From: a virus
Virus record (IMG/VR): IMGVR_UViG_3300002519_000024
Span: 1-30,756 of that record
Strand: one strand, 5' to 3'
DNA length: 30,756 nt
Under the pieces are notes generated by a model, which ran no database searches, was not told the origin of the DNA, and saw nothing but the letters and a program-made list of their open reading frames with translations. The position numbers and the translations under genes were made by a program. Each line of letters opens with the position of its first letter. Positions within the stretch are counted from its first letter, which is position 1. Positions 1 through 13,671 of this stretch are shown one piece after another.

Positions 1-563
1 CGTCCCTTCAGCTTGTCGAGGCGGTGTTGCGCCGCCTGGGCCAAGGCCAAACGCCAAGCCGGGATGGCCTGGTCAGCGGGAGCCACGTCAGCGGAAGGCG
101 CGGTGGCCGTCTTGGCTTCCGCTTTCTCCTTCGTCTCCGACTGAGAGGCGTACAGCTTGCGCACGGGCGCCATCTGACGAGCCGGCTTGGTCTCCACCTT
201 GGGGGCGGTGGGCGTCGTGGTGCCGAGCACGGGCTCGGCGATGCGCTCCCAGGAGCGGGCGGTCTCGAGCTCGGCCAAGAACGCGTCCTGCTTGGCGTCC
301 TCTTCCTCGGTGTCCATGAGGACCTCGCTGCGAGAGTTCTCCTGGATCATCTGGTCCCAGCAAGAGGGGTCCTCGTCAGACCACTCTTCGATCCCCTTGT
401 AAGCTCCGGGGTTGACGGCCACGGCGTTGGTCTTGTCGCTGCTCCACCGGTAACCGGTGTCAGCAGGCGTGTTGCAGTCGTCGTCGCTGAAGGGGATGAC
501 GATGGGGGTGAAGGACTGACCCACGATGGAGTCAGTGGCGATCTCTGTGTATGCGTCGTACAT
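1..563 (-). CDS. Hypothetical protein, partial (3' end outside window)
   Basis: The frame is open from ATG at 563 to the window edge (187 codons plus two bases) with no stop, so the C-terminus lies outside. The start is one base after the TAG of the upstream gene (565-840), with GAGGAA about nine bases before it, which suggests translational coupling. The N-terminal half is acidic and Trp-containing (DEDPSCWDQMIQENS near residues 63-77). The second half is rich in Ala, Pro, Lys and Thr and looks like a flexible linker. No catalytic motif, signal peptide or membrane segment is visible. Opposite-strand and other-frame readings of this stretch are Arg/Gly-rich artefacts of the high G+C content. 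I do not recognise the family. Confidence 0.75.
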   Translation of the reverse strand, partial: MYDAYTEIATDSIVGQSFTPIVIPFSDDDCNTPADTGYRWSSDKTNAVAVNPGAYKGIEEWSDEDPSCWDQMIQENSRSEVLMDTEEEDAKQDAFLAELETARSWERIAEPVLGTTTPTAPKVETKPARQMAPVRKLYASQSETKEKAEAKTATAPSADVAPADQAIPAWRLALAQAAQHRLDKLKG

Positions 564-564
564 G

Positions 565-840
565 CTAGCTGTTCCTCGAGTGAGACCAGATCCCGCTGTG
601 GGGATCGTCGGCGGGCAGAACCATGCCCGTATTCTGGTAGCGCTCTGCAACGTCACCGAAGTTGGCGACATGGACCCAACGACCCAGGCCACCATCCGCG
701 ATGCGAGTCACCCCTTTCAAGGTGGAGGCGAGGCGCCAGCCCCACGTTCCATCCTCGAAGCGGCTATCGATGGCCTGAACGACCACCCCGCTAGGGGTAG
801 TCCAGGTCTGCTGCACGAACTGAGCTGTCAAAATGGACAT
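565..840 (-). CDS. Small hypothetical protein, paralogue of 1440-1715
   Basis: A 91-residue protein of unknown function. The start ATG is preceded by AAGGATAGG, a plausible ribosome binding site. Its C-terminal third contains GRWVHVANFGDVAERYQNT. The protein at 1440-1715, also 91 residues, has GMWSLIANFGDVAER at the equivalent place, so the two are paralogues. The shared part is also conserved in DNA (around 639-666 and 1468-1495). The N-terminal half has short beta-like segments (VVVQAIDSRF, WGWRLAST), which suggests a small beta-sheet domain. The next gene starts one base after this stop, so the two are probably co-translated. No known domain is recognised. Confidence 0.75.
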   Translation of the reverse strand: MSILTAQFVQQTWTTPSGVVVQAIDSRFEDGTWGWRLASTLKGVTRIADGGLGRWVHVANFGDVAERYQNTGMVLPADDPHSGIWSHSRNS

Positions 841-855
841 GCGTACCTATCCTTT

Positions 856-876
856 CCTATGTACAAAGCCCATAGG
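856..876 (-). promoter_or_regulatory. Leader hairpin upstream of the 91-aa gene
   Basis: The spacer at 841-887 contains a perfect 6-bp stem, CCTATG (856-861) with CATAGG (871-876), and a 9-nt loop. It ends a few bases before the ribosome binding site of the gene at 565-840. It could stabilise or mark the 5' end of a processed leftward transcript. There is no T tract on the leftward strand, so a simple terminator is unlikely. Confidence 0.45.
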
Positions 877-887
877 AGGCAGTTCTT

Positions 888-1352
888 TCAGGCTGCTGCG
901 AGCCTGAGATTGTTGATGCCGCGCACCTCGGGAGCCTCACCGAAGAGCTCACGCTCGAGACGGAGGAGGCGCTCCGTCAGGGTCTCGGGGCAGGGCTCGA
1001 GATCGAAGACGGGAGGCGTGGAGATGGGAACGAGGGAGGTGGTCTGGACCATGAGCTCTGACAGCCCCTTGGATGCGGCCTTGGTCTCTTCCTTGACGCT
1101 CATCTCTACGTTCGCAGCGTCCCACTCTTCCATGATGAGAGCACGCCGCTCTGCATCACGCTTTGCATGCAACTCTCGGGCATGACGAGCAGCCCAAGCT
1201 TCGAGTCCGGTGGGCAGGTCAGCGAGGACGAGATCCAGGCTGATACCATACCAGTGGCTCTCCTGCATGGAGGGCCGGTAGTGGGTGAAGACCATCACCA
1301 AAGCGATGACCATGAGGAAGAGAACGGCGAGCATGAGAATGATTGCGGACAT
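888..1352 (-). CDS. Membrane-anchored hypothetical protein
   Basis: A 154-residue protein. The first about 23 residues form one hydrophobic helix (MSAIILMLAVLFLMVIALVM) and the rest is soluble, so it is probably a type I or III single-pass membrane protein. The body is Ala/Glu/Arg-rich and likely helical: residues about 50-85 contain AWAARHARELHAKRDAERRA, a probable coiled coil. A second helix near the C-terminus contains ETLTERLLRLERELFGEAPE. The start is well supported by AATAGGAG seven bases or so upstream. No enzymatic motif is visible. Small membrane proteins with a cytoplasmic coiled coil can be spanin- or exclusion-like in phages, but nothing here establishes either role. Confidence 0.8.
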   Translation of the reverse strand: MSAIILMLAVLFLMVIALVMVFTHYRPSMQESHWYGISLDLVLADLPTGLEAWAARHARELHAKRDAERRALIMEEWDAANVEMSVKEETKAASKGLSELMVQTTSLVPISTPPVFDLEPCPETLTERLLRLERELFGEAPEVRGINNLRLAAA

Positions 1353-1375
1353 GGCTTACTCCTATTGTGAAGCCG

Positions 1376-1414
1376 TGGGTAGAATTACCCATCCTGCCAC
1401 ACCGCGCTTTGCGG
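1376..1414 (-). promoter_or_regulatory. Two leader hairpins upstream of the membrane protein gene
   Basis: The 87-bp spacer 1353-1439 contains TGGGTA (1376-1381) pairing with TACCCA (1386-1391) around a 4-nt loop. It also has CCGC (1402-1405) pairing with GCGG (1411-1414). The first hairpin sits just before the AATAGGAG ribosome binding site of the 888-1352 gene. It may be a degenerate relative of the hairpin cassettes found further upstream in this gene set. Confidence 0.4.
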
Positions 1415-1439
1415 CGGGCAGACGGGGCGCCTGAGCTGT

Positions 1440-1715
1440 TTAACTCAGGCTCTTGTCTCCGTACTTTCGCTCTGCAACGTCACCGAAGTTGGCGATCAAA
1501 GACCACATTCCCTGACCGCAGTCAAGAACCTGGGTCTTACCGTTGAGCTCCGAACAGATCCTCCACGTCACTCTGACGCGGTCGCTATCATTCCAGATGG
1601 TCTCCACCACCCAGATATGGATTTCGTCCATTCCATGATACAGAATACACTCTTGAAGAATGTTATCCTGCAGCCAGCCCATGCAGAACCTCTCGCGTAT
1701 AACTCCCTCGCACAT
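1440..1715 (-). CDS. Small hypothetical protein, paralogue of 565-840
   Basis: A 91-residue protein of unknown function whose C-terminal region (GMWSLIANFGDVAER) matches the protein at 565-840. The middle has alternating beta-like stretches (IHIWVVETIW, VRVTWRIC). The ATG at 1715 lies exactly at the junction of a 15-nt tandem duplication (1699-1728), so the first codons are repeated DNA. The GAGGGAG in front of it is very close to the ATG. An alternative start is the ATG at 1682, preceded by GAGAGG with good spacing, which would give 80 residues. The gene is probably real because the conserved block is shared with a paralogue. The exact start is uncertain. Confidence 0.65.
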   Translation of the reverse strand: MCEGVIRERFCMGWLQDNILQECILYHGMDEIHIWVVETIWNDSDRVRVTWRICSELNGKTQVLDCGQGMWSLIANFGDVAERKYGDKSLS

Positions 1716-1728
1716 AACTCCCTCGCAC
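1699..1728. repeat. 15-nt perfect tandem repeat over a start codon
   Basis: ATAACTCCCTCGCAC occurs twice head to tail at 1699-1713 and 1714-1728 (+ strand reading). On the coding (-) strand the junction of the two copies creates the ATG at 1715, and each copy carries a GAGGGAG Shine-Dalgarno-like string. The unit is five codons long, so the duplication keeps frame. Confidence 0.85.
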
Positions 1729-1763
1729 GCTTGTCGCCTACCTGCAGAGACATTCCACAGGTA

Positions 1764-1820
1764 CCCGTCTATTCGGGCAGGGAGCCCAGCATCAGGGCTA
1801 TGCTACCTACAGGAAGTAGG
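1764..1820 (-). ncRNA. Three-hairpin intergenic cassette A
   Basis: Three short stems follow one another in the spacer 1716-1823, just after the stop of the 1824-2396 gene. In + coordinates they are: CCTAC/GTAGG (1806-1810 with 1816-1820, 5-nt loop); AGCCC/GGGCT (1783-1787 with 1795-1799, 7-nt loop AGCATCA); and CCCG/CGGG (1764-1767 with 1774-1777), flanked by GTAC at 1761. The same order, spacing and loop bases recur in the spacer at 2927-2983, with different stem bases that still pair. That compensatory pattern supports a structured RNA. The function is unknown: RNA processing, mRNA stabilisation or partial termination are possible. Confidence 0.55.
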
Positions 1821-1823
1821 ATT

Positions 1824-2396
1824 TTAGATCTCGAACAGGTACACCCGCATCGGGTCTGGGTCGCCCCAGTAGTCCCGGCAGAACTCGTACCCGAAGCCGA
1901 ACTCCCGCAGGTGCTTGTCCAGCCTGGCGATGAGCTCCCGCTTCACGTAGAAGCCGGACAGCGTGTCGACGCAGAAGAGGTTGAAGAGCTCTCGCCCTGT
2001 GACCTCTAGCACCGACGCGCAGTTGGAGCTCCACTCACCCCTGTGGCCGGGAGCCTTGGCAGCGTCGTGACTGCGGAACCCGAAGGTGAACATCTCCGGA
2101 CACTCATCCACAACTGAGACACGCGTGATGCCCTCGCCACCGTCGACCAGCTCCAGCACGGTGCAGTCGAACTCGAAGTCCACCACGGGGATGAGCGTGA
2201 GCCTGGCCTCAGTGTGCCAGGTGAAGCCGGTTTCCACCGACCCCTCCTCCGACGCCCACCTATGTCTGTTGGTGAATTTGCCACCTTTGCTGGCGAACAG
2301 GTGGAACTCCTGTCCCCCGATCTCAACCACACCACAGCGGGTGGTTCGACCTGGGAAACGCTCCATGCTCTCCAGCTGGCGCTTTAGCCTATCCAT
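1824..2396 (-). CDS. Hypothetical protein, 190 aa
   Basis: A 190-residue soluble protein with no recognised domain. I chose the ATG at 2396 over the GTG at 2441 because GAGGAGAG sits at the right distance before it. The sequence is mixed alpha/beta: a short N-terminal helix (MDRLKRQLESMERFPG), then several beta-like stretches (VVEIGGQEFHLFAS, RLTLIPVVDFEFDCTVLELV), and a C-terminal helix (VKRELIARLDKHLREFGFG) followed by FCRDYWGDPDPMRVYLFEI. Aromatic residues are frequent in the last third. It lies in the leftward gene set between two hairpin-bearing spacers. A regulatory or host-takeover role is possible from position alone, but there is no direct evidence. Confidence 0.78.
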   Translation of the reverse strand: MDRLKRQLESMERFPGRTTRCGVVEIGGQEFHLFASKGGKFTNRHRWASEEGSVETGFTWHTEARLTLIPVVDFEFDCTVLELVDGGEGITRVSVVDECPEMFTFGFRSHDAAKAPGHRGEWSSNCASVLEVTGRELFNLFCVDTLSGFYVKRELIARLDKHLREFGFGYEFCRDYWGDPDPMRVYLFEI

Positions 2397-2488
2397 CTCT
2401 ATCTCTCCTCTAGCTTTGAACCCTGCCTCACGGTTCACCACGATATATGGTGCCCAGCACTTGACGAACTGGGTGTACGTTTACGGGT

Positions 2489-2505
2489 GGTCCAGCATCA
2501 GGACC
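2489..2505 (-). ncRNA. Intergenic hairpin with the conserved AGCATCA loop (partial cassette)
   Basis: In the 121-bp spacer 2397-2517, GGTCC (2489-2493) pairs with GGACC (2501-2505) around the 7-nt loop AGCATCA. That loop is identical to the middle hairpin of the cassette at 1783-1799, while the stem bases differ. The flanking GTAC-containing third stem is degenerate here (around 2475-2487) and no first stem is convincing. Apart from this element the spacer holds only the ribosome binding site of the next gene. Confidence 0.5.
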
Positions 2506-2517
2506 ATGCTTTACTGC

Positions 2518-2907
2518 TTACTTGCGCTCAGCCTTCTTGAAAGCCTTGAACGCCTCCTTGATGTAGAGGGCTTCCGCCCTCCAGCCCATCTTCGCCGCCT
2601 CATTCCGCACCCAGTGTGCCAGCTCGGTGAGCTTGGCCATATCAGCGCGCTGCCTGTGACACGTGGACATCTCGAAGACATCGAACAGCCCGTAGGGCGC
2701 CGGCAGGTCATAGACCCGCTTCGCCATTGCGTTCATCTCCGAGCGGAAGTCGAAAGCAGCTTTCTCACCGAGATTGCTCGCCTTGTGCCTCACCTCCTCC
2801 CTCTTATTCGCCCACTTCCTCTGGGCGTTGTTGAGCATGGACCCAACGCCAAAGTCCTTGAAGTACTTCACCTTCATCTCCTCCGCACGATTCACACGCC
2901 TACTCAC
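2518..2907 (-). CDS. Hypothetical helical basic protein
   Basis: A 129-residue protein if translated from GTG at 2907, or 119 residues from ATG at 2877. Neither start has an ideal ribosome binding site: GGAGG precedes the ATG by only two bases and the GTG has none. The protein is Lys/Arg/Ala-rich and almost entirely helical by eye (NNAQRKWANKREEVRHKASN; AKMGWRAEALYIKEAFKAFK), and it ends in a basic tail. It could bind nucleic acid, but there is no recognisable helix-turn-helix. It lies between the HAD phosphatase gene and the 190-aa gene, separated from both by spacers that hold hairpins. Confidence 0.7.
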   Translation of the reverse strand: MSRRVNRAEEMKVKYFKDFGVGSMLNNAQRKWANKREEVRHKASNLGEKAAFDFRSEMNAMAKRVYDLPAPYGLFDVFEMSTCHRQRADMAKLTELAHWVRNEAAKMGWRAEALYIKEAFKAFKKAERK

Positions 2908-2926
2908 AGCTGTCTAACTGCAAGTA

Positions 2927-2983
2927 CCCTTAGAAAGGGCGAGGAGCCTGGGCATCACAGGCTTGCCACCTACTGAATGTAGG
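2927..2983 (-). ncRNA. Three-hairpin intergenic cassette B
   Basis: The spacer 2908-2988 follows the stop of the HAD gene. It holds CCTAC/GTAGG (2969-2973 with 2979-2983), AGCCTG/CAGGCT (2945-2950 with 2958-2963, 7-nt loop GGCATCA) and CCCT/AGGG (2927-2930 with 2936-2939), flanked by AGTAC. Order and loop sequence match the cassette at 1764-1820 while several stem base pairs have changed together. The element fills most of the spacer and precedes the start of the next gene. Confidence 0.55.
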
Positions 2984-2988
2984 ATTTG

Positions 2989-3342
2989 TTACCGTATGAA
3001 CGGTCGGACACACACACTGGCAAGGTGTGCCTGGTCGTCGATCGTCCATCCACGGGAGGGCTTCTCTTTCCTGCCCTCATGGAATTGGTGGTCACTGAAC
3101 AGGTACCACCACACGCCTAGATTGCGCTTGGTAGCAGTCTTGTTCACGAGACCACGATTGGTCCACAGCACAAGCCGGAACCCGATGACGCGCAGCATCA
3201 GCAGCACCACCAACAACCAGTGCCTCTTAGGCAGGTTGTCTATGGACTGTTGCTCATACCACTGGACACCATGTATTGCGAACATGATGTCCAGGTCATT
3301 GGACAGGAGTGTGCCGTCGACATCTACGTACAAAGTACGCAT
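2989..3342 (-). CDS. HAD-superfamily phosphatase
   Basis: A 117-residue protein with the haloacid dehalogenase hydrolase motifs. Motif I is LYVDVDGTLL (Asp7 nucleophile, Asp9 acid/base). Motif II is LVLWTNRG (Thr61). A Lys-rich stretch (RKEKPSRG, 91-98) could supply motif III, and motif IV is WTIDDQ (Asp102, Asp103). Enzymes of this superfamily form an aspartyl-phosphate and usually dephosphorylate small molecules or nucleic acid ends. The small size leaves almost no cap domain, as in many phage HAD proteins that act on nucleotides or polynucleotide 5'/3' ends. The ATG at 3342 is preceded by GGAGGAGGACAT, so it is preferred over the upstream ATG at 3405. The substrate cannot be deduced. Confidence 0.85.
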   Translation of the reverse strand: MRTLYVDVDGTLLSNDLDIMFAIHGVQWYEQQSIDNLPKRHWLLVVLLMLRVIGFRLVLWTNRGLVNKTATKRNLGVWWYLFSDHQFHEGRKEKPSRGWTIDDQAHLASVCVRPFIR

Positions 3343-3364
3343 ATGTCCTCCTCCTACTACGGTA

Positions 3365-3443
3365 CCCCTCCCATAGGGGCACCTCCAACTCTGCACCACG
3401 ACCACATTGGTCGCGGGCAGAAGTGGCGACCGACCTAAGTCGG
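3365..3443 (-). ncRNA. Three-hairpin intergenic cassette D
   Basis: The spacer 3343-3444 holds three successive stems: CCGAC/GTCGG (3430-3434 with 3439-3443, directly after the stop of the upstream gene), CGACCA/TGGTCG (3399-3404 with 3408-3413) and CCCC/GGGG (3365-3368 with 3376-3379), preceded by GTAC at 3362. The order of stems and the GTACCC-type third stem match the cassettes at 1764-1820 and 2927-2983, but the middle loop is different (CAT). It ends just before the very strong ribosome binding site of the HAD gene. Confidence 0.5.
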
Positions 3444-3444
3444 C

Positions 3445-3606
3445 CTAGTAGATGTAGACCACCCCACGCTCCTGCTTAGGAGGCGTGGGCTGGGGGCGAG
3501 GGGTCCAGTACGGGGAGGGGAGAGGCAGCTCCAGTTGGGGCCGCTCCTCCTTCTTCCGCTCCTTCTCCCTCACCCACTCGATCACGACGGGGTGAGGTAG
3601 ATGCAT
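3445..3606 (-). CDS. Small proline-rich hypothetical protein
   Basis: A 53-residue protein whose ATG (3604-3606) lies one base after the TAG of the upstream gene at 3608, so it is probably translated by coupling; AAGGAG lies within the end of the upstream gene. The N-terminus is a charged helix (VVIEWVREKERKKEERPQ) and the C-terminal half is a proline-rich tail (PLPSPYWTPRPQPTPPK). It could be a short adaptor or a peptide accessory to the preceding membrane protein. The longer reading of this frame that begins at 3780 overlaps the upstream gene by 173 bases and is not credible. Confidence 0.6.
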   Translation of the reverse strand: MHLPHPVVIEWVREKERKKEERPQLELPLPSPYWTPRPQPTPPKQERGVVYIY

Positions 3607-3607
3607 C

Positions 3608-4954
3608 CTATCGCTTCTCCTTACGACCGGCGATACGGTCGACCTGCAGCTGTGCCGCCTTGACGCGCAGCTGTGCCGTCTGGACAGCAGCCAGAGCCCA
3701 CCTGCTGTCAGGCAGGTTCCGGTAGATGGACACTGCGTAACGCACTTCCTGGCTGGCCAAGTCAAGGACCCGCTGTGCACGAGCAGGGGTCATGGTCTTC
3801 CAGGCCACGCCCTTGCGGTTGTGGTCGAGGAGCACCTTGTCAGCGACCTCAGGGCTGATGTTCGAAGGCGGATCTATCTCGTAGACGGGGTTGGCGTACG
3901 TCCGCTCTGTCTTGGACAGGGCGCCCTTCACCTGAGTAGCCCGCTTACGGATCTGAGGCCCCTCGTCGTCCTGCTCCGTAGAGGAGACGGTCCCCTCCAT
4001 CACGTACTCGTTGGGCGGGAGGTCGGGGCAGTACTCGAAGTGGCCGTTGTGCTCCTGGTAGCACCAGTTGCAGGCCCAAGGGGTGGAAGGGCAGCCGTGG
4101 TCGTGGCCGTAGAGCTCGATCCACGCCATCATGCAATGGCAGTCCTCACACGACTCGGAGGTCGACCCGTAGTGGATGTCGTTGTCGTGAATCATAGAGT
4201 ACTTGCAGTGACGGTCGTCACTATCATGTCCATCCTCGGGGCCGCAGCACTCAGCGCAGCTCTCGTACTCGCGCTCTGCCCGCCGAAGCGCCTCTTCACG
4301 CTCCCTGTCCTCTCGGTCGAGGTCCTCGAACTGAGAAGCCAGCTCCTCCTGGTAGGAGGCGTTGTCCTCAGCAGCCTGCTCACTGTAGTCATGGTGGTTG
4401 GCACCGTCGAGGTACGAGTCCAGGGCGTCCCACATGGGGTGATCGGCAGGGGTGGCAGGGGTAGTAGTGAGGGTAGCCGTTGGTGAGAAGATGGGCCTAT
4501 GGCAGCGGACACAGAGACACTGGTTGCTGTCCATATGGACCATCTGCCTGGCCACGTAGTGAGGGTAGCCTTTGGAGACCAGCTTCTGGATGGTGATACG
4601 CCACGCCTTGGGCGTGGCCACCTTGGTCACCTTGCGACCCTTGGTCACGGGCAAGGAGAGCAGGTACGACAGGCACCTGCTGCAGAACAGCCGCACACGA
4701 CGCATGTCCCTGTTGAAGGGGGTGGTCACGTCTGCATGTGTGAAGTACCCCTTGATGGTACGGCACACATGCAGCATACGGCTGTACGTACGCATGATGC
4801 GCTCGCTCACCCATGAGGGCAAGCTCAGGGCCACGTGCATGGAGGGGTAGTGCCCCATCACACACTTGTAGATGTACAGGCGCAGGCCTGTACGCACGAT
4901 GTATCCCACCACCAGAAGGGCGATGAGAAGGAGAGCGGCATTCAAGTGTTGCAT
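3608..4954 (-). CDS. Membrane-anchored Cys/His-rich protein
   Basis: A 448-residue protein from ATG 4954, where AATAGGATAG precedes the start; an upstream ATG at 5014 would add 20 residues inside a palindrome-rich leader. Residues about 5-30 are a single hydrophobic segment (AALLLIALLVVGYIVRTGLR). The cytosolic part has two CxxC pairs (CSRC near 91-94, CVRC near 148-151) that could form one zinc ribbon. An acidic coiled coil (LDREDREREEALRRAEREYE) follows. A second Cys/His cluster near 230-310 includes CAECC, CEDCHC and CNWC. The C-terminus (about 375-448) is a helical, Ala/Gln-rich basic domain. Several metal sites are likely, but I recognise no family or enzymatic signature. It is the largest gene of the leftward set. 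Confidence 0.78.
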   Translation of the reverse strand: MQHLNAALLLIALLVVGYIVRTGLRLYIYKCVMGHYPSMHVALSLPSWVSERIMRTYSRMLHVCRTIKGYFTHADVTTPFNRDMRRVRLFCSRCLSYLLSLPVTKGRKVTKVATPKAWRITIQKLVSKGYPHYVARQMVHMDSNQCLCVRCHRPIFSPTATLTTTPATPADHPMWDALDSYLDGANHHDYSEQAAEDNASYQEELASQFEDLDREDREREEALRRAEREYESCAECCGPEDGHDSDDRHCKYSMIHDNDIHYGSTSESCEDCHCMMAWIELYGHDHGCPSTPWACNWCYQEHNGHFEYCPDLPPNEYVMEGTVSSTEQDDEGPQIRKRATQVKGALSKTERTYANPVYEIDPPSNISPEVADKVLLDHNRKGVAWKTMTPARAQRVLDLASQEVRYAVSIYRNLPDSRWALAAVQTAQLRVKAAQLQVDRIAGRKEKR

Positions 4955-4970
4955 GTCTATCCTATTGGTG

Positions 4971-5000
4971 TGTACGTACACGTGTATGTGTGTACGTACG
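4971..5000. promoter_or_regulatory. Overlapping palindromes, operator-like
   Basis: In the leader of the membrane-anchored Cys-rich gene, the palindrome GTACGTAC occurs at 4972-4979 and 4992-4999. The spacing is exactly 20 bp, about two helical turns. A further palindrome, TACACGTGTA, overlaps at 4977-4986. Such same-face palindrome pairs are typical of operators bound by dimeric regulators, but no regulator or promoter is assigned. Confidence 0.4.
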
Positions 5001-5011
5001 TGTATAGAGGG

Positions 5012-5048
5012 CACCCCTATATGAGGTACCCCCTATGTAGTAGGGGTG
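5012..5048 (-). ncRNA. Intergenic hairpin with two competing pairings (cassette E)
   Basis: Directly after the stop of the membrane protein gene (5051), CCCCTA (5030-5035) pairs with TAGGGG (5041-5046) around a 5-nt loop, again with GGTAC before it. The same right arm, extended to TAGGGGTG (5041-5048), also pairs perfectly with CACCCCTA at 5012-5019. The two structures exclude each other. The GTACCC-type stem relates it to the other spacer hairpins in this gene set. Confidence 0.5.
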
Positions 5049-5050
5049 TG

Positions 5051-5581
5051 CTAGCAGGTGCCTGCCATCATGGACGACACAAACAGCACGATGCTGACCA
5101 GGTTCATGCCACCCATGATGATGATGAGGGGGGCGTCGCCGTTGAGCAGGGAGATGAAAAAGAACATGCTGGCGATGACAGCCAGCATCCCCGACATGAC
5201 CATGAGCCACGTAACACACGTACCCAGCGCCCAGATGCAGGCGATGAAGATGGCCGTGGTGTACACGAGGGTGAGCCCGGGGGCAACCTTAGCCGTCCAC
5301 ACCCACAGGCAGCAAGCCATGTAGCTCATGATGCCAATGATGAAGGAGGAGGACAACACGAGCTGGCCCATGTACCCCTCATCACCGAAGGTAAGGAAGG
5401 CCAAGAAGAGACCGAACGTACCCAACAGGGTAAGGGCACTACCCCTGTACTCACGCAGCTGAGGGGCGATCGAGTGGATCATCCCACACGTGATCAGGGT
5501 CATGATGACCAAGATCATCATGCCACTACCGTGAGCGTCAACGAAGGAAGAGAAGAAAGAGATTAAGGAAGAGTAACTCAT
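5051..5581 (-). CDS. Polytopic membrane protein
   Basis: A 176-residue, very hydrophobic protein with about six membrane segments: ILVIMTLITCGMIHSIA, ALTLLGTFGLFLAFLTF, QLVLSSSFIIGIMSYMACCL, LTLVYTTAIFIACIWALG, VTWLMVMSGMLAVIASMFFF and PLIIIMGGMNLVSIVLFV. ATG 5581 is preferred because TTAGGA lies upstream; the ATG at 5605 has no ribosome binding site. It is the first gene transcribed leftward from the divergent region. No transporter signature is visible. A holin is possible on hydrophobicity alone, but it has more segments than most holins. Function is unknown. Confidence 0.8.
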   Translation of the reverse strand: MSYSSLISFFSSFVDAHGSGMMILVIMTLITCGMIHSIAPQLREYRGSALTLLGTFGLFLAFLTFGDEGYMGQLVLSSSFIIGIMSYMACCLWVWTAKVAPGLTLVYTTAIFIACIWALGTCVTWLMVMSGMLAVIASMFFFISLLNGDAPLIIIMGGMNLVSIVLFVSSMMAGTC

Positions 5582-5659
5582 GTGATATTGTCCTAACAAG
5601 AGCATGACACATATACGAACACAGGGAACACCCCCGGGCTCGCATGGGCCATTAGTGGC

Positions 5660-5676
5660 AACATACCTACTATGTT
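5660..5676. repeat. Inverted repeat, operator candidate (leftward side)
   Basis: AACATA (5660-5665) and TATGTT (5671-5676) are perfect inverted arms around CCTAC. The element lies about 80 bp upstream of the leftward membrane protein start, where a regulator could act. Confidence 0.45.
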
Positions 5677-5717
5677 AACCAGGTCCTCTCACATTTTTCT
5701 CTAAATTCATATAATTC

Positions 5718-5745
5718 TCTAGGCCCTAGAAGTCTACAAGACTTC
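5718..5745. repeat. Two adjoining inverted repeats
   Basis: TCTAGG/CCTAGA (5718-5723 with 5725-5730, one-base centre) is followed by GAAGTCT/AGACTTC (5729-5735 with 5739-5745, three-base centre). The two share their boundary bases, so they could be alternative structures or adjacent protein sites. Confidence 0.5.
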
Positions 5746-5785
5746 CACGGACCAGAGACCCCTCAAATAATTTTCTAATTCTTCT

Positions 5786-5829
5786 TCTCCTCCAGCTCCT
5801 CAAACATCTTATGACTCTCCTCCAGCTCC
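5786..5829. repeat. 14-nt direct repeat
   Basis: TCTCCTCCAGCTCC occurs at 5786-5799 and again at 5816-5829, 30 bp apart, near three helical turns. The interval lies inside the divergent region in a pyrimidine-rich stretch. Confidence 0.6.
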
Positions 5830-5915
5830 CAAGCCACTCTGCTCTCTTTTATATATATTTTCCCCTATTTTGGACAGAGTCCCTTTATTACACGCACGCG
5901 GGTGTTATTTATATA

Positions 5916-5938
5916 TGAAGGCTCCGCTTGGACCTTCA
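5916..5938 (+). promoter_or_regulatory. Leader hairpin before the rightward operon
   Basis: TGAAGG (5916-5921) pairs with CCTTCA (5933-5938). The inner TCC/GGA pairing (5923-5925 with 5930-5932) closes a GCTT tetraloop, with one bulged C. It sits immediately downstream of a TATATA tract and 40 bp before the first rightward start codon, so it is probably in the 5' leader of the structural transcript. Confidence 0.45.
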
Positions 5939-5977
5939 CCTATATTTGGGACTCAACCAAACCAACAGGAGACAGAC

Positions 5978-6184
5978 ATGAATTATCTGGAACTACAGCT
6001 AGTTGATGACTCTAAGCTTATGGTGCAAAATGCTCTTGCGAGTGCATTGAGGGAGTTCGAGGGTGTGGACGCGCGTTATATTGACCTGGACAAGGTCAAG
6101 GCCAACCTGGAAGCCGCACTCCCTGGAACAACCTTCACCGTATCTGTGGAGTACGACGAACTTAACATCAAGCTCTCGCAGTAA
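5978..6184 (+). CDS. Small hypothetical protein, first gene of rightward operon
   Basis: A 68-residue acidic protein. ATG 5978 is supported by ACAGGAGACAGAC just before it; the upstream in-frame ATG at 5870 would read through the leader hairpin and is rejected. The sequence reads as a helix (KLMVQNALASALREFEGVDA), a second helix (DLDKVKANLEAALP) and a beta strand (TTFTVSVEYDELNIKLS). No family is recognised. As the first rightward gene, it could be regulatory or a small virion-assembly protein. Confidence 0.7.
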   Translation: MNYLELQLVDDSKLMVQNALASALREFEGVDARYIDLDKVKANLEAALPGTTFTVSVEYDELNIKLSQ

Positions 6185-6528: not shown

Positions 6529-7414
6529 TACGTGGTTCAAGCAGAAGAGCAACGTACACAAACCCCTACACCCCGATTACAAGAGAATGAAGGAGAAGCT
6601 TCAATTGGACGCTATAACCAAGATGGATGATTTGGAAGAGGACGCACTCAAGAACGTGCAGAAGAGATTGGATGAGATAAAGGTGGAGGAGGAGCGGCAG
6701 GTCGCCTTGGCGGTCAAGCCATCGGACACCTGGTTCCAGACGTTGAATCTGGCCATAGATGAGTATCCCGACCTGCAGCTCACCCCTGAGGAGCAGCGAA
6801 GGGTTCACAAGTCGGCCCGCCTGACAAGAACCGGACTCGCCTCACAGGTTCCCATGACATGTCCCACACGAGAGAGATGTCCGTTCGCCAAGGGATGGCA
6901 GAACGGTGGAGGACATTGTGAGTATGCCAAGCTCCGCAAGGAGCCCATCGGAAAGCCCTGCATAGTGGAGATGGACCTTATCGCCTACAAGACCAAGGAG
7001 TATGCCGACCAGTTCGAGGTGGGCTCTACACCTGAGGAGGCGACCGACAGGTTGCAATGCATGGAGCTTGCCGAGTACGACGTGTATGAACGTAGAGTGA
7101 CCCTGCTTCTGGGTGGGAAGGAGCGCTCCGATCTGACGGAGGAGAATGTCATAGGTGTGGATGAGGCGGAAAATCCTATATATGCGAGACAGATCGCCTT
7201 GCCTTGGCATCTCAAGATTCAGATAAAGAACCGCCGGGACCGCGTCCTGCAGCAGATGGTGGCGACACGCAGGGAGAAGTATAAGAGAGCTGCCGCCATG
7301 GGCAAGCTGGAAGAGGGAGACGCCAACCTGGGCTTCGCCGGGGTCATGGGCAAGTTCGAGAGACTCCAGAAGGAAGGGGTCATAGACATCAACGTCTTCG
7401 AAGAGAATGAGTAA
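6422..7414 (+). CDS. Cys-motif phage protein, possible packaging or DNA-binding factor
   Basis: A 330-residue protein from TTG 6422, with GGAG and a 7-nt spacer upstream, overlapping the preceding gene by 107 nt. The N-terminus is very basic (KRLDPKRVRSKAEKKIPKHK). Residues 147-183 hold four cysteines in the pattern C147-x5-C153-PFA, C166 and PIGKPC180-xVE, which probably bind zinc or an iron-sulfur cluster. From memory, this CP...CPFA...PIGKpC.vE arrangement occurs in an uncharacterised protein encoded upstream of structural genes in other tailed phages. After it the protein is helical and charged. No catalytic motif is seen. A small terminase or other DNA-handling role is inference only. 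Its stop overlaps the start of the giant protein by one base. Confidence 0.72.
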   Translation: MGSKNLPKRLDPKRVRSKAEKKIPKHKRYPDIYHFNTWFKQKSNVHKPLHPDYKRMKEKLQLDAITKMDDLEEDALKNVQKRLDEIKVEEERQVALAVKPSDTWFQTLNLAIDEYPDLQLTPEEQRRVHKSARLTRTGLASQVPMTCPTRERCPFAKGWQNGGGHCEYAKLRKEPIGKPCIVEMDLIAYKTKEYADQFEVGSTPEEATDRLQCMELAEYDVYERRVTLLLGGKERSDLTEENVIGVDEAENPIYARQIALPWHLKIQIKNRRDRVLQQMVATRREKYKRAAAMGKLEEGDANLGFAGVMGKFERLQKEGVIDINVFEENE

Positions 7415-10400
7415 TGATCAAGGACTTCCTATCAAGGGCTAGCTTCTTCGATATCGAGACTACCGGTCTCGATCCCAGAAAATCCAGCACTTCGATTTGG
7501 GAAGGGGCCATCTATCATGAGGGCCGCAACACGGTTTGGAAGAGAGCCAAGCCCATCTCCCCCAATACAGGTCGGGTCATTCCGATCTCTCAGATGTCCC
7601 CGTGGACTCAAGCCTCTCTCAGTCAAGGAAGCACACCTATCACAGATGAGATCCTGAGCAAGGGTCTCAACCGCAAGCCTTTCATCAGCCGTATGCTCGG
7701 AGAGATGAAGGGAAGGGACGTGTGGGTCCAGAACCTGCCGTTCGAATCACGCCATTTGGCCGCCAACATGAGCGACCGCACCTACACAGACTTCATCAAG
7801 TCAGCCAGACTTCAGACCTTCTCTGTAAACAAGGACCCCATTACAGGCAAGCTCGCCTCAAGGCGTCTGTTCACCACCTCACCCATCGTAGAGCAGGCCG
7901 TGTCAAAGGCATGGGGAGCTGCGCCTGGCGACAGCTCGATGAAAGCATGGGGCGGTGTATGGGGTGCTATCAAGAAGGAGCTCACCCAAGGGGTTCCTGA
8001 TGATGTGACACGTATCTTCGACATCCAGGACGTATCCAGATCCTTGTTCGCAAAGGCTCAGATGGAAGGCTACATGAGACGTAGCGGTGACATCTTCACG
8101 GGCACCTCGGTGGAGACCTACTCCCAGTTGATGGAAGGTATGGCCGAGTCACACAGGGCCCCTGTCGATATCAAGGCACAGTCTCGAATGCTCAAGTCCT
8201 ATATGGGCATGCTCGAGAAGATGGATTCGGGTACTGGTCTCTCCATCAAGGAGAAGGACTATCTCATGTCCGTCTCTCTGCTCCAGCCCAAGTTGAAGAG
8301 ACAGAATGCCGCGAAGACCCTCTCTTCCGCCTATGCTCAGATCATGGACTTCAGAAGCAACCAGGGTCCTGGATATCCTGTGGCGATCGGAAGACGGATC
8401 AAGGACATCGAAGCAGGACACTACACCGGAAAGACGATCTCAAAGACCATTCCGGAGATGACGTACAAGCATCTGACGGACATGGAAGATGTAGTCGCAC
8501 AGCTGACAAGGTCTCAGGACAGGAACGTTCGGATCGGCCGGATGCACAGAGCGCAGAAGGTCGACTATCAATCTATGTGGGGCTCGATGAGAGGTGCTCT
8601 CAGAGGAAAGGAGAACTGGCAAGGTGCTCTGCATGAGTGGGAGAAGGGTTACAAGGTCAGTGATGAGGTCTATGGCTCATTGAGATCTGGAAAGGGTCTT
8701 CCTGGCGCAAGGGCTGGCAATGTCGGAGACAAGGCGTTCTCCTGGGCGAAGAAGAACTGGAAGGCTATTGCAGTGGGAGGAGCGGGAATCCTTGCGTTGC
8801 ATGCTCTGACCGGCGGGCCCAACAACGATCCTCTATACGGTGTTGATGTAGACGATCCCTATCCGGGAGACACCACGTCTCCTCCGTCTTTCAGTCCAAG
8901 CGGAAAGTTCGGCGGAGTCATTCACAGGAAGACTGATTCAAGCATGGCCATGTATGTTCCCGATTCCAAGGATACGATTCAGATCGAGGATGCTGACACC
9001 GCCATCCTCCACCTTGCAAAGGGAGGCACGCATGCCATTCGTATGGCTGGTATCGATGCTCCTGAGGTAGGCCACAAAGATGAGTATGCTGAGGGCAGAG
9101 TCCTTCAAGAGCAGCCGTATGGACAGGAGGCTACAGAGACTCTGAACCGACTTATGGGAGAGATGGACAGCGTAGGTGTACTGTTTGACGAAGCCGGCCG
9201 TACATCCTATGGCCGTACAGTCGGTGTCCTCATGGGAGAGAGAGACGGACAGCAGTTCAATCTGAATGAGATGCTTGTCAAGGCGGGTTCGGCAAAGTTC
9301 CTGCCATTCGGAAAGAGACGTGACTCCATCATCGACAGAGGCGCATTCCAAAGAGCGGAGAATGAGGCCTACGCAGCACACAGAGGCATGTGGGACGAAG
9401 AGGGGTGGAGAAGGGTAAGACAGGCAGAGGGTGACAAGGACACTGTCACAAACGTTTCGTTCACCAACATGGAAAGAATGAGCAACGACTTCAGGATCGC
9501 AGCACTTCTTCGTAGACAAAGAGACATGACCGTATCCTACAACCTCGCCGCTGGTGGCAAGGACGACCACAACGTCATCGAGGGTCTGCCCCATGGTTGG
9601 TTCGGCAGCAAGCGTAAGTACAACACCGACTTCGGCTCTGGTTACCAGGGAGAGAGCTTCGGTGTCGGAGACGCCATCTTCATGGCAGGCTCCGCGCTTA
9701 CAGGATTCGACAGGTTTGGAGGCAAGGGTGGAGCCATCGGTGCTGCGATCGGACTTGGCTGGACAGCTCTTACAAAGGGAACGTCTTCAGTACTGGGAGA
9801 CAGCACTGCGGGAGACGCCTGGAGGTTCTTGAGTGGTGGTATCACAGCTTCGGCAGCAACCTCCATGTTTGCATCATCCATGATGAAGGGTGGTCTTTTG
9901 GAGCCTGTTGGAAAGGAGATGTCTAAGGGCTTCTCGAGCTTGGTTGGAGGAACGACAAAGAAGTTCCTTGGGACCAGCTCTGGAGAGGCTTACCTGAAGA
10001 GTAGAGGTATGGCGAGAGAGCCTGCAGAGAAAGAGCTCCTGTCCTTCCTTGAGAGAACAAAGGATGACCCTCGTGGCTTCTTTGCTGTAATTCAAGAGGG
10101 TGGTGAGACATTGTCAGAGCTGGGTGGCTTCATGAGGAAGTCCGACTCAATTGGAACTAAGGGAGTCGGTGGCCTCCTCGGGTCACTTACAAATCCCTAT
10201 GTCCAAGGTTTCCTTGGCTCTCCGAAGCTGGCAGGTGCGATCAAGCATCACGGTACCAGAAAGGGTTTGACTGAGCACTTCGAAAAGGAGATGCCGTGGT
10301 TGGGTGTGACCAAGAACGATATTGAATACATAGCAGGAGAGGGTTTCTCCAAGCCAAGGTATATGGAGACTCTTAGGATGAGAGGCTTCAGGGACAAGAT

Positions 10401-13400
10401 CCATGAGCAGGCCTCTGTAGGTACGAGGAATGAGGTATTCACGAAGGTTAGAAAAGAGGTGTCCAAGGGGTATTCTTATGAGTACGGAGGCAAGACGTCT
10501 CACTTATTAAAGTCGAACGACGGCTTTGTTTCGGGCATGGGTCTTACCCATCGTGGACGAGCTGTCGCTGACAAAAAGATCGCTCCGTATGAACATGGTA
10601 AATGGGTTTCGGAAGGCAAGCCAGGTAAGTCCAAGCATTTCAGCCCGCATGAGATAGATCGGTTCCTAAAGTATGACAAGAACATTCTTGAACATGCACA
10701 GACAAGAGCCTCAATAAGAAAGGAAGTGGGAGAGGACACCTGGAAAAAGTGGACAGAGGGTCCTCTGGATGAGTATGGCAGCAATCCATTTACAGGTATG
10801 CTTGGACTCGCGGAGGGACTGACCAAGCAAAAGGAGGCTCTTGGTTGGAAATCATTGAATGTAAAGGACCTTGTCGAGAGCTCTTTTACGAAGAGCACGT
10901 ATGCAGACAGTTATAGGTATATTCCATCCAATCATGCTAGAGGACTTAGGGAAGCAGGGCTGAAAGACGCTATGTATGCGAAGGCTAATAGAATCTCCAT
11001 GGAGGAAGGAGGGATTGGAGCCATCCGTAAGGAGATGAAGGGTAAGTTCGCAGCCAGCGAAGGTGAGATGAGCACTCACTTCCTTGATGCAAGTGCAGGT
11101 CTGAAAGACATCCCAGCAGAAGAATATTTCAAGGCGAATGCTCTTGACCTTTATTACGGAGCGGCTGGTGGTCTTATGTTGGGTGGTGCTGTCGGCGCTC
11201 TAAATATGGGTTACGATGCGCTCTTCGGAAGAAGCACCTTCTCTGGGCACGATGACAACTACAACACAATCGAGGGCCTCTCTCACAAGGGAATGGCAGG
11301 AGCATCACGTAGGCGCAATACTGGCTTCGGATCTGGCTGGAAGGGAATCTTTGGAGGCTATAAGAAGTTCATGGCTGCCAGCAGGGAGGAGATCGGCTCT
11401 GCACTTAGAGGGTGGGCTGGTAAGAGATCTGTGGTCCAGAAGGGTCTCCTCGGTCAGCCTGCTGCATTGCAAATGGCGTTGACCAGTGAAGGATTGTCCG
11501 GCGCTATTTTTCAAGATCCCCATGCGATAAGTTTTTTTTCTCGTCATCTTAAAGTTAATCCAAAAATTCTTGAGGAAGTTACTGTAGCACATGAGGTATC
11601 AGAGCTTTACCATGGTTTACGGATTGGAGAGAAGACTCTTGCTGGCATGGGGTCTCCAAAGAGATCTATTATAGACAGACTTTTTGGAAGGAATAAGACT
11701 CATTCAGAAGAGGCTATTAAGAGTGCTCTTAATTCATCTTTACAACCTACATTTGGCTCTCACTTTAGTCCCTCTGTTATCGCTGATGAATTAATTTATG
11801 GCGCAAAGATGGGTCCAGAGCATTATGATGTTGTAAAACGAATGCGTATGTGGGAGATTGCCAATCAGCCTGACAAGGCATACGCAACAAGAACTCGAAA
11901 GATAATCGCTGCATTTGAAAAGAACCAACTGCCAAAGTTCTCTGGATTCGATGATGCCTATAACACCATTCGGGGCCTTCCTCATAATGGAAAGGCAGGG
12001 GCATCACGTCGACGTAACACACACTTTGGATCTGGATATAAGGGAGATGAAGGGCTTACTGTCGGAGGTATTCTTTCTGGCGCAAACAAGCTCTTTATGG
12101 TTGGTGCCTCTGCCATTACAGGGTACGATCGCTTTGGTGTTCGAGGAGCAATTGGTGGGGCAGCCCTTGGTATCGGCCTTGGCTTTGGAATGGAGCTTGG
12201 CAAGTTTGACCACGCAGAAGGAAATCTTGGAAAGACTCTTTGGAACGTAGGACTTGAGGGCATAGGAACATCTGCAGGAGCCTCCATGCTTGCATCGTCG
12301 ATGATGAAAGGGGCATTCTTCAGAGGGAAGCTGGGAAAGTACGGTACAGATGAGCAGCTTGTGGGCATGGCTGAGAGCCTAGGTCTTTCTCCTGAAATAG
12401 GAAAGGCAGGTGGCATGTATGGGATGTTGGGGAGATCTTATAGGCAAAAGATTGAAACTGCACTCCCAGGTAAGCTTGGAGAGATTCTGGGAAGAGGAGT
12501 GGAGGCTCAAACAGGATCTCCTCACATGTTGGATGCAGTTCTTCAGCATGGTTCCATTCAAGCGATTCCTCCTCAAGAGTTCTTTATTGCGAATGCAAGA
12601 GATGTTATGTCTGGTGCTGCTGCGGGCTTTGTGGCATCAAGTCCCATTGCATTCGGTTCGTACCTGTTCTCTGGAAAAGACGATGCTTACAACTCGATCG
12701 AAGGTCTTCCTCATAAGGGGATGGCTGGGGCCAGTCGTAGACAAAGAACCGACTTCGGGTCTGGTTATCAAGGAGAAGATCAGGTTGGAGCCTTTGGCGG
12801 TATGGTGGGACTCGGAGCCACCCTCTATGCAGGTCGTGGCGCATACAGTGTTCGTGGAAACTTGATGATGGCTCGTGGCCACTGGCGTGGATACATGGAC
12901 TTCTTCCATGGTACTCCGATTGCGAACAGAGCGAATATCTTGGCGGAAGGTCTTGTGCCCAATGCCAAGGACTGGGACAAGATCAAGCATCTGACTCCTA
13001 CAGACCCTGCTCAGAAGGCTCTGTTCGCTCAAATTAGAGAGAAGGGAGAGAGGGTATTCTTCTCTGGTGAATCTTGGATTGCAAGAGCACATGCAAGTCA
13101 ACAGGTAAAGCAGAACATTGGTCCTTTTATGGAAAACATGGGAAAGGCCAAAGGTATGCTGGGTTATTTCCACCCTTCTGTTCATGGAGGAAAAGCAGAG
13201 GGAGCGATATTCAAGTTCCGCCTTCCGATGGAAGAGATCGCTTCTCAGACTGGCCTCTTGGCTCAGTATGAAGCCATTACAGGGAGTGAAGGAGTTTCTA
13301 AGTTTCTCAAGGGATGGGGAGATGCATTTGCTTCTCATACAGGTCCTTCTATTGACCTATCAAGAGCAGGAGGGGTGGCTCCTGAACTCTTTAATGAGGT

Positions 13401-13671
13401 AATTCCGACAAGAGGAGGAGAGATTCTCTGGGGAGAGAAGGAGGTCCTAAGGGCTGCAGAAACCACAGGCTTTAAGCCCAATAAGGCAAAGGCTGCTGGA
13501 AGATTTGCTCTTGCAATGGCTCCAATAGTATTGGCAGGCTGGGGAGTGAACAAGATGTGGAATGCGATGCATACAGACGCGACTACAGACATGAAGAAGA
13601 AGATGTCCAGGAAGAATATTCAAGGACATGCTAATATGGATCCAAAGAGGCATATGAATATTTATGGCTAA
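7414..13671 (+). CDS. Giant multi-domain polyvalent-type protein (exonuclease, SNase, ART)
   Basis: A 2085-residue protein starting in a TAATG overlap. Residues 11-20 read FFDIETTGLD, the first motif of DnaQ-type exonucleases (Asp13, Glu15). A weaker second motif, WVQNLPFESRHLA, is near 105-115, and a HRAQKVD string near 378-384 may or may not be the third. Residues about 517-675 are a staphylococcal-nuclease domain: RMAGIDAPE (Arg543, Asp548, Glu551), YGR with Arg601, LVKAGSAKF and the closing AYAAHRGMW. Four copies of GASRRRNTxFGSGY-like motifs begin near 717, 1280, 1513 and 1756. Residues about 1365-1510 carry HEVSE...SHFSPSV, a possible metal site. Residues about 1828-2015 resemble ADP-ribosyltransferases (FFHGT, VFFSGESWIARAHA, GGE). 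Several Gly/Ala hydrophobic segments suggest membrane contact. It is likely packed in the virion and delivered with DNA, by analogy with phage polyvalent proteins. Confidence 0.85.
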   Translation: MIKDFLSRASFFDIETTGLDPRKSSTSIWEGAIYHEGRNTVWKRAKPISPNTGRVIPISQMSPWTQASLSQGSTPITDEILSKGLNRKPFISRMLGEMKGRDVWVQNLPFESRHLAANMSDRTYTDFIKSARLQTFSVNKDPITGKLASRRLFTTSPIVEQAVSKAWGAAPGDSSMKAWGGVWGAIKKELTQGVPDDVTRIFDIQDVSRSLFAKAQMEGYMRRSGDIFTGTSVETYSQLMEGMAESHRAPVDIKAQSRMLKSYMGMLEKMDSGTGLSIKEKDYLMSVSLLQPKLKRQNAAKTLSSAYAQIMDFRSNQGPGYPVAIGRRIKDIEAGHYTGKTISKTIPEMTYKHLTDMEDVVAQLTRSQDRNVRIGRMHRAQKVDYQSMWGSMRGALRGKENWQGALHEWEKGYKVSDEVYGSLRSGKGLPGARAGNVGDKAFSWAKKNWKAIAVGGAGILALHALTGGPNNDPLYGVDVDDPYPGDTTSPPSFSPSGKFGGVIHRKTDSSMAMYVPDSKDTIQIEDADTAILHLAKGGTHAIRMAGIDAPEVGHKDEYAEGRVLQEQPYGQEATETLNRLMGEMDSVGVLFDEAGRTSYGRTVGVLMGERDGQQFNLNEMLVKAGSAKFLPFGKRRDSIIDRGAFQRAENEAYAAHRGMWDEEGWRRVRQAEGDKDTVTNVSFTNMERMSNDFRIAALLRRQRDMTVSYNLAAGGKDDHNVIEGLPHGWFGSKRKYNTDFGSGYQGESFGVGDAIFMAGSALTGFDRFGGKGGAIGAAIGLGWTALTKGTSSVLGDSTAGDAWRFLSGGITASAATSMFASSMMKGGLLEPVGKEMSKGFSSLVGGTTKKFLGTSSGEAYLKSRGMAREPAEKELLSFLERTKDDPRGFFAVIQEGGETLSELGGFMRKSDSIGTKGVGGLLGSLTNPYVQGFLGSPKLAGAIKHHGTRKGLTEHFEKEMPWLGVTKNDIEYIAGEGFSKPRYMETLRMRGFRDKIHEQASVGTRNEVFTKVRKEVSKGYSYEYGGKTSHLLKSNDGFVSGMGLTHRGRAVADKKIAPYEHGKWVSEGKPGKSKHFSPHEIDRFLKYDKNILEHAQTRASIRKEVGEDTWKKWTEGPLDEYGSNPFTGMLGLAEGLTKQKEALGWKSLNVKDLVESSFTKSTYADSYRYIPSNHARGLREAGLKDAMYAKANRISMEEGGIGAIRKEMKGKFAASEGEMSTHFLDASAGLKDIPAEEYFKANALDLYYGAAGGLMLGGAVGALNMGYDALFGRSTFSGHDDNYNTIEGLSHKGMAGASRRRNTGFGSGWKGIFGGYKKFMAASREEIGSALRGWAGKRSVVQKGLLGQPAALQMALTSEGLSGAIFQDPHAISFFSRHLKVNPKILEEVTVAHEVSELYHGLRIGEKTLAGMGSPKRSIIDRLFGRNKTHSEEAIKSALNSSLQPTFGSHFSPSVIADELIYGAKMGPEHYDVVKRMRMWEIANQPDKAYATRTRKIIAAFEKNQLPKFSGFDDAYNTIRGLPHNGKAGASRRRNTHFGSGYKGDEGLTVGGILSGANKLFMVGASAITGYDRFGVRGAIGGAALGIGLGFGMELGKFDHAEGNLGKTLWNVGLEGIGTSAGASMLASSMMKGAFFRGKLGKYGTDEQLVGMAESLGLSPEIGKAGGMYGMLGRSYRQKIETALPGKLGEILGRGVEAQTGSPHMLDAVLQHGSIQAIPPQEFFIANARDVMSGAAAGFVASSPIAFGSYLFSGKDDAYNSIEGLPHKGMAGASRRQRTDFGSGYQGEDQVGAFGGMVGLGATLYAGRGAYSVRGNLMMARGHWRGYMDFFHGTPIANRANILAEGLVPNAKDWDKIKHLTPTDPAQKALFAQIREKGERVFFSGESWIARAHASQQVKQNIGPFMENMGKAKGMLGYFHPSVHGGKAEGAIFKFRLPMEEIASQTGLLAQYEAITGSEGVSKFLKGWGDAFASHTGPSIDLSRAGGVAPELFNEVIPTRGGEILWGEKEVLRAAETTGFKPNKAKAAGRFALAMAPIVLAGWGVNKMWNAMHTDATTDMKKKMSRKNIQGHANMDPKRHMNIYG
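9562..9663 (+). repeat. FGSG motif copy 1 (coding repeat)
   Basis: Residues about 717-750 of the giant protein read DDHNVIEGLPHGW...YNTDFGSGYQG. This is the most divergent of four copies, lacking the GMAGASRR part. It is followed by a module with TGFDRFG and ASSMMKG that recurs after copy 3. Confidence 0.75.
11251..11346 (+). repeat. FGSG motif copy 2 (coding repeat)
   Basis: Residues about 1280-1311 read DDNYNTIEGLSHKGMAGAS, then RRRNTGFGSGW. It is preceded by a hydrophobic Gly/Ala segment and a PAEEYFKANALD string that has a counterpart (PPQEFFIANARD) before copy 4. Confidence 0.8.
11950..12045 (+). repeat. FGSG motif copy 3 (coding repeat)
   Basis: Residues about 1513-1544 read DDAYNTIRGLPHNGKAGAS, then RRRNTHFGSGY. 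The following module (ITGYDRFGVRGAIGGA, LASSMMKG) matches the one after copy 1, showing a large internal duplication. Confidence 0.8.
12679..12774 (+). repeat. FGSG motif copy 4 (coding repeat)
   Basis: Residues about 1756-1787 read DDAYNSIEGLPHKGMAGAS, then RRQRTDFGSGY. It is the last copy and lies directly before the ADP-ribosyltransferase-like domain. Confidence 0.8.

Follow-up and report, generated by a model that had tools for sequence, protein, structure and literature searches.

Gene organisation at the locus

The DNA analysed here, referred to below as the window, is an IMG/VR contig of 30,756 bases and is identical to positions 89,521–120,276 of G001, a longer contig (120,396 bases) from the same phage. 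Its right part is matched near-identically by two more contigs, one of which adds ~62 kb. The TerL protein is 33% identical to TerL of Moorella phage MTATph1, portal- and capsid-type domains are encoded downstream of it, and the source is a large tailed phage. From base 1 to ~95 kb of G001 nearly every gene is leftward, including ~30 tRNA genes and a tmRNA gene, and the spacers with three hairpins are situated between the first leftward genes past a divergent gap at 5.6–5.9 kb of the window; the position of this gap suggests that the leftward genes constitute the early region. The G+C content is ~60% in the leftward genes (window 1–6000) and 46–52% in the rightward block (10000–30756). The tRNA set includes one CUA (amber-reading) anticodon (sites listed in G001 as L010:3654-3727 and L009:5373-5778), and TAG remains in use as a stop codon in leftward and rightward genes alike.

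When folded as the minus strand, spacers A, C and D each form three successive hairpins, beginning 3 (A), 5 (C) and 0 (D) nt past the stop of the leftward gene upstream, and the distance from the cassette to the next start varies from 18 to ~90 nt. Cassette A (1758–1823, minus strand) and cassette C (2921–2988, minus strand) were each identified by folding, by homology to one another and by covariation. In A, hairpin 1 is located at 1820–1806, hairpin 2, with the loop UGAUGCU, at 1799–1783 and hairpin 3 at 1779–1762; in C the corresponding positions are 2983–2969, 2963–2945 (loop UGAUGCC) and 2940–2926. As leftward RNA, with the hairpins in brackets, A reads AAU-[CCUAC UUCCU GUAGG]-UAGCAU-[AGCCC UGAUGCU GGGCU]-CCC-[UGCCCG AAUAGA CGGGUA]-CC and C reads CAAAU-[CCUAC AUUCA GUAGG]-UGGCA-[AGCCUG UGAUGCC CAGGCU]-CCUC-[GCCCUU UCU AAGGGU]-AC. 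The two align over 66 nt as one three-hairpin cassette, with a similarity score of 52 that was reached by none of 2000 shuffles, and among the 231 spacer pairs compared within the final 29 kb of leftward genes two were unmistakable, A–C and one other. The likeness ends at the gene borders and the genes flanking A are not paralogues of those flanking C. A partial copy, B (2488–2510, minus strand), was identified by a loop and stem search and by covariation and consists only of an AGCA flank and hairpin 2 (2506–2488, loop UGAUGCU).

A 7-nt loop UGAUGCY on a stem of at least 5 pairs is present in A, B and C, and is the minus-strand form of the RGCATCA loop that the preliminary description had pointed out in three spacers. 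In 258 kb of the phage and its relatives one other TGATGC loop has such a stem (G001 75,329, plus strand) and lies inside a gene region. The RGCA flank ahead of hairpin 2 is complementary to the UGCY that ends the loop in each of the three copies, with A-U in A and B and G-C in C (window 1783–1804, 2488–2510 and 2945–2967, minus strand). A pseudoknot formed by this pairing was rejected for all three copies because zero nucleotides are left to span, and the pairing would at best give an alternative hairpin or a switch.

Covariation in the cassettes

The folding energies of A and C are only mildly better than those of shuffled sequences (z -2.0) and that of B is no better (z -0.45), and it is therefore covariation, not stability, that carries the structural case. 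In the A-C-B alignment, which holds two full copies and one partial, all of them paralogues from one genome, 96% of the cells pair across two helices, and in helix 2 the figure is 17 of 18. This combination of pairing and covariation was equalled by 1 of 500 shuffles, and by none once the partner was slid. Hairpin 1 has an invariant stem and a variable loop. In hairpin 2 both sides have changed at all six pairs among A, B and C, with the GCA flank and the UGAUGCY loop constant, so that a feature of operator type, a fixed loop on a covarying stem, is present in the three copies. These are six covarying pairs in three paralogues, the standard of R-scape being covariation beyond phylogeny over independent lineages.

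In an alternative register for A and C, AGCC/GGCU is constant and one inner A pair is replaced by two in C, which keeps the pairing too but with fewer compensatory events. The comparison of A with B over flank, stem and loop (AGCAUAGCCCUGAUGCUGGGCU vs AGCAUGGUCCUGAUGCUGGACC) has no ambiguity of register, and its four changes make up two compensatory pairs.

Hairpin 3 is common to A, C and D, where its fifth pair is G-C (A), U-A (C) and C-G (D), and its outer G-U, which pairs on the leftward transcript only, is retained in all three. The hairpin 3 motif GCCCN{7,11}GGGTAC is matched 4 times over 20 kb where 0.23 would be expected, spacers A, C and D accounting for three of these, and it is to this hairpin that the GTACCC-type bases pointed out earlier belong. 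The stems named in the preliminary description (AGCCC/GGGCU, AGCCUG/CAGGCU and GGUCC/GGACC) likewise all exist. Its proposal that RNA structure is selected for is supported by the two-sided changes in every pair of hairpin 2, the compensated fifth pair of hairpin 3 and the retained leftward-only G-U, which together argue that the RNA shape of the cassettes is under selection.

The D-type spacers and spacer E

Spacer D (structure 3361–3444 within the spacer 3343–3444, minus strand) folds far better than shuffled sequence (z -5.4) and was also found by the GCCC...GGGUAC motif search. Its hairpin 1 is located at 3444–3429, a long hairpin 2 (3426–3385) in which a single U is bulged comes next, and hairpin 3 (3383–3361) is of the type found in A and C; a Shine-Dalgarno sequence, AGGAGG, falls outside the hairpins. 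What D has in common with A and C is hairpin 3 and the layout, hairpin 2 being different, long and U-bulged. The layout is also found in the spacer 1353–1452 (structure 1377–1450, minus strand, folding z -5.1), which the preliminary description had overlooked. Here hairpin 1 (1450–1429) has the stop codon UAA within its loop, the long, U-bulged hairpin 2 is located at 1426–1388 and a weak hairpin 3 (1390–1377) competes with the base of hairpin 2. Both spacers thus have three hairpins of which the long middle one carries a single bulged U on its 3' side, and hairpin 2 comprises 15–18 pairs, compared with 5–6 in the stems of the A, B and C type. The similarity between D and 1353–1452 was equalled by 4 of 2000 shuffles and had a value of 0.0013 in the spacer-pair comparison, which, with 231 pairs compared, is no more than suggestive; the latter is probably a second D-type copy.

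Spacer E (4972–5062, minus strand) contains a 14-pair hairpin at 5036–5004 and a 10-pair hairpin at 4999–4972 and folds strongly (z -5.3). It has no similarity to A or D, and the first and middle stems of the cassette are absent from it. The five spacers initially described as one family therefore resolve into two full A-type copies (A and C), a partial one with the middle hairpin (B), one D-type spacer that probably has a partner in 1353–1452, and a structured spacer with no relation to the others (E).

Strand, coding potential and transcription signals

Folding of the spacers is better in the leftward sense than in the complementary one (p 2.5e-4; 98 vs 58 G-U pairs). This test is partly confounded, as coding stretches show some of the bias, their sense strand folding better too (by -2.7 kcal/mol per 100 nt). 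A coding origin of the cassettes was rejected: the minus-strand frames are broken, all three in A and two in C, and in the one frame that is open in A as well as C, on the plus strand, the differences are spread evenly over the codon positions (9, 8, 7) and the codon score is negative. A tRNA-like nature of the three hairpins was likewise discarded, ARAGORN finding none at the spacers. No U-tract follows the cassette hairpins, no minus-strand terminator-like site coincides with a cassette hairpin and a scan for sigma-70-like sites revealed no promoter-like site in the spacers. Leftward intrinsic termination, one of the functions first suggested for the spacers, and a role as promoter cassettes are therefore unlikely.

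Searches for further copies and known families

A covariance model built from the spacers, a check proposed in the preliminary description, recovered the three training copies with scores of 62.7, 62.7 and 37.1 bits and nothing further in 257 kb, where the best non-training score was 17.2 bits (E 0.03). With filters off, in 20 kb around the region, the next matches were weak and included G001 85,659–85,767 and spacer E, at chance-level E-values. Viral and genome collections were scanned with the pattern GTAGGTRGCA...TGATGC, and both hairpins were present in none of the at least 165 matches listed. In Rfam 15 no family reached the gathering threshold in the window, 100 kb of G001 gave matches to tRNA and tmRNA only, and a permissive Rfam search of the spacers gave only implausible matches of microRNA type. 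That the element could be new, as first suggested, is supported within Rfam and the collections scanned. Structured cassettes between the cistrons of phage mRNAs are a known kind of element, and the present sequence and structure had no counterpart in these searches.

Apart from the contigs of the same phage, one relative was found by TerL (57%), and its contig is without the cassette region. Searches with five leftward or flanking genes gave zero relatives, and the contigs contain no Y1 transposase domain and no recognisable RNase III domain.

A second repeated element outside the window

Another structured spacer element is present twice elsewhere in the leftward block, at G001 84343–84434 and 84825–84932 (L012:4343-4434 and 4825-4932), on the minus strand. 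The copies read GACCUAU-(GAGCGGA)-GGUC-NUUAAGUG-(UCCGCUC) and GACCUAU-(GGGUGAA)-GGUC-NUUAAGUG-(UUCACCC), that is, a seven-pair helix around an invariant 12-nt loop, GGUCNUUAAGUG, followed by the conserved hairpin CCUUARGCAAGG. Three of the seven pairs are altered on both sides and none is broken. The shuffle control, limited by there being two sequences, is weak (68 of 500), and the sliding control is clear. The element is a probable H-type pseudoknot, in which the invariant letters GACC and GGUC would form the closing helix. A search for its pattern found only this phage and two unrelated, coding-like matches without the pairing. Several other spacers at 66–95 kb contain long, near-perfect hairpins shortly past the stop codon, and a general pseudoknot scan mainly recovered long hairpins again.

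Discussion

In the early region of T7, RNase III sites are structured elements of ~60 nt in successive spacers of the early polycistronic mRNA, and the cassettes described here resemble them in size and in their recurrence in successive spacers. RNase III recognises its sites by their double strand, which spans some two helical turns and often includes an internal loop or bulge, whereas the A-type stems of 5–6 pairs are too short for typical sites and carry a fixed UGAUGCY loop; the D-type hairpins are a closer fit. The PeSL elements, which Arbiol and co-workers are said to have described in 2010 as mobile regulatory cassettes of T4-type phages with an early promoter and a terminator-like stem-loop, are intergenic stem-loop cassettes copied between unrelated genes within one phage, as are A and C, but the cassettes of the present phage are without U-tract or, in the sigma-70-like scan, promoter-like site. 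The nut sites of lambda and put sites of HK022 are small antitermination RNA hairpins of early operons in which, as here, loop or structure is kept and the stems vary among copies; in the present phage there is no boxA, several copies occupy consecutive spacers and an action on the polymerase is putative. Phage mRNA structures read by proteins are exemplified in T4 by the hairpin operator of gene 43 and the pseudoknot of gene 32 (PMC3014915). The former has a fixed loop and the latter is an H-type pseudoknot, comparable to the second element. Those are single leader operators of replication genes, in contrast to the several copies found here, each past the stop of an ORFan gene and with a binder that is putative.

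Weighing these observations we give about even chances to the three-hairpin spacers being cis-acting RNA cassettes at the gene ends of the leftward polycistronic mRNA. The three-hairpin unit would have been copied among non-homologous genes and retained for its structure. Hairpin 1 would mark where the upstream cistron ends on its 3' side. Hairpin 2, which combines a variable stem with a constant GCA flank and UGAUGCY loop, is a predicted recognition site for a host or phage protein or nuclease, and hairpin 3 may cap the downstream cistron on its 5' side. Jointly the three would determine the sites of transcript cleavage or the lifetime of each cistron. Such punctuation of the mRNA, by factor binding, processing or end protection, would suit cassettes that are compact, lie beside the stop codon, recur from one spacer to the next and keep the loop and flank of hairpin 2 constant. 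Other leftward spacers of the genome likewise hold strong hairpins past the stop, as well as the second covarying element, in favour of this reading. A role in processing or stability, as first suggested, is plausible; against processing by RNase III stand the short A-type stems and the fact that the contigs encode no recognisable RNase III.

Hairpin 2 could instead be a translational operator, whose loop is bound by a phage RNA-binding protein that represses or activates the downstream cistron. A fixed loop and flank over a variable stem is the trace expected of a protein that reads the loop, and gp43 and gp32 of T4, which act on their own mRNAs, are precedents (PMC3014915). The cassettes adjoin the upstream stop, however (0–5 nt), at varying distances from the next start, the Shine-Dalgarno sequence of D is outside the hairpins and the downstream genes are unrelated, which leaves an operator an unlikely reading. 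A polymerase signal in the manner of nut or put, where the hairpins, as they emerge, would bind the polymerase or bring in a factor and so prevent termination along the leftward operon, would agree with the location near the start of the long leftward gene block and with a conserved loop on a covarying stem, resembling boxB. It is improbable, since no boxA-like element lies beside hairpin 2, one element per operon would suffice where several are consecutive, and any terminators downstream are putative.

Equally improbable is selection at the level of DNA, in a mobile or recombination cassette like PeSL whose palindromes are kept for single-stranded DNA hairpins or for recombination. Copies between unrelated genes with homology stopping at the gene borders are as expected of such a cassette, but the retained G-U pairs are valid on the leftward strand only, the contigs have no Y1 transposase, the unit showed no early promoter in the sigma-70-like scan and there are no copies elsewhere in 257 kb or among the matches listed from the viral and genome collections. 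Very doubtful, too, is a neutral origin, with A, B and C as relics of spacer duplication that are alike by descent and pair by coincidence: the copies are few and the folding z-scores of the three modest, but 17 of the 18 helix 2 cells pair despite two-sided change at every pair, and hairpin 3 is compensated independently. The faintest prospect is a terminator on the other strand, in which rightward transcription entering the leftward genes from the left would be stopped by hairpin 1 of A and C followed by AUUUUAG or AUUUGUU. Both sites scored as terminator-like on the plus strand and A and C share the AAU ahead of hairpin 1; against this, a stem of five pairs followed by three or four T's makes a weak terminator, hairpins 2 and 3 are left unexplained, and 3.2 sites are expected by chance in the region where 8 were found.

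A wider reading is that the leftward operon is punctuated by several paralogous structured RNA modules with shared parts, read by a dedicated factor, which we regard as a rather unlikely extension. In that reading, and with no greater likelihood, the three-hairpin, U-bulged hairpin and pseudoknot modules would be families that set processing or expression cistron by cistron. For uncultured phages the usual obstacle is the lack of relatives, and paralogous cassettes that diverge within one genome with their pairing kept make it possible to argue for RNA structure in spite of it. Should the UGAUGCY loop have a binder, it would constitute a new phage RNA-protein pair, and should the cassettes be cleavage sites, they would show how transcripts are divided in a large phage without recognisable RNase III.

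Other features of the window

The same 28-nt stretch is found at 641–668 and 1468–1495, within two small leftward genes which are paralogues (58% over 33 aa). A near-tandem repeat, GTGCGAGGGAGTTAT, at 1683–1720 (minus strand) precedes the start of the gene 1440–1715 and gives it two possible start sites. The gene at 2989–3342 (minus strand) encodes a small protein starting MRTLYVDVDGTLL, with a HAD-phosphatase-like motif and a weak match to PHROG 1238. The stretch 7414–13671 encodes a protein of 2085 aa with an SNase domain, an N-terminal FFDIETTGLDP motif, DEDD exonuclease-like, and a motif resembling GLPHxGxAGxSRRxxTDFGSGYxG, apparently in ~4 repeats.
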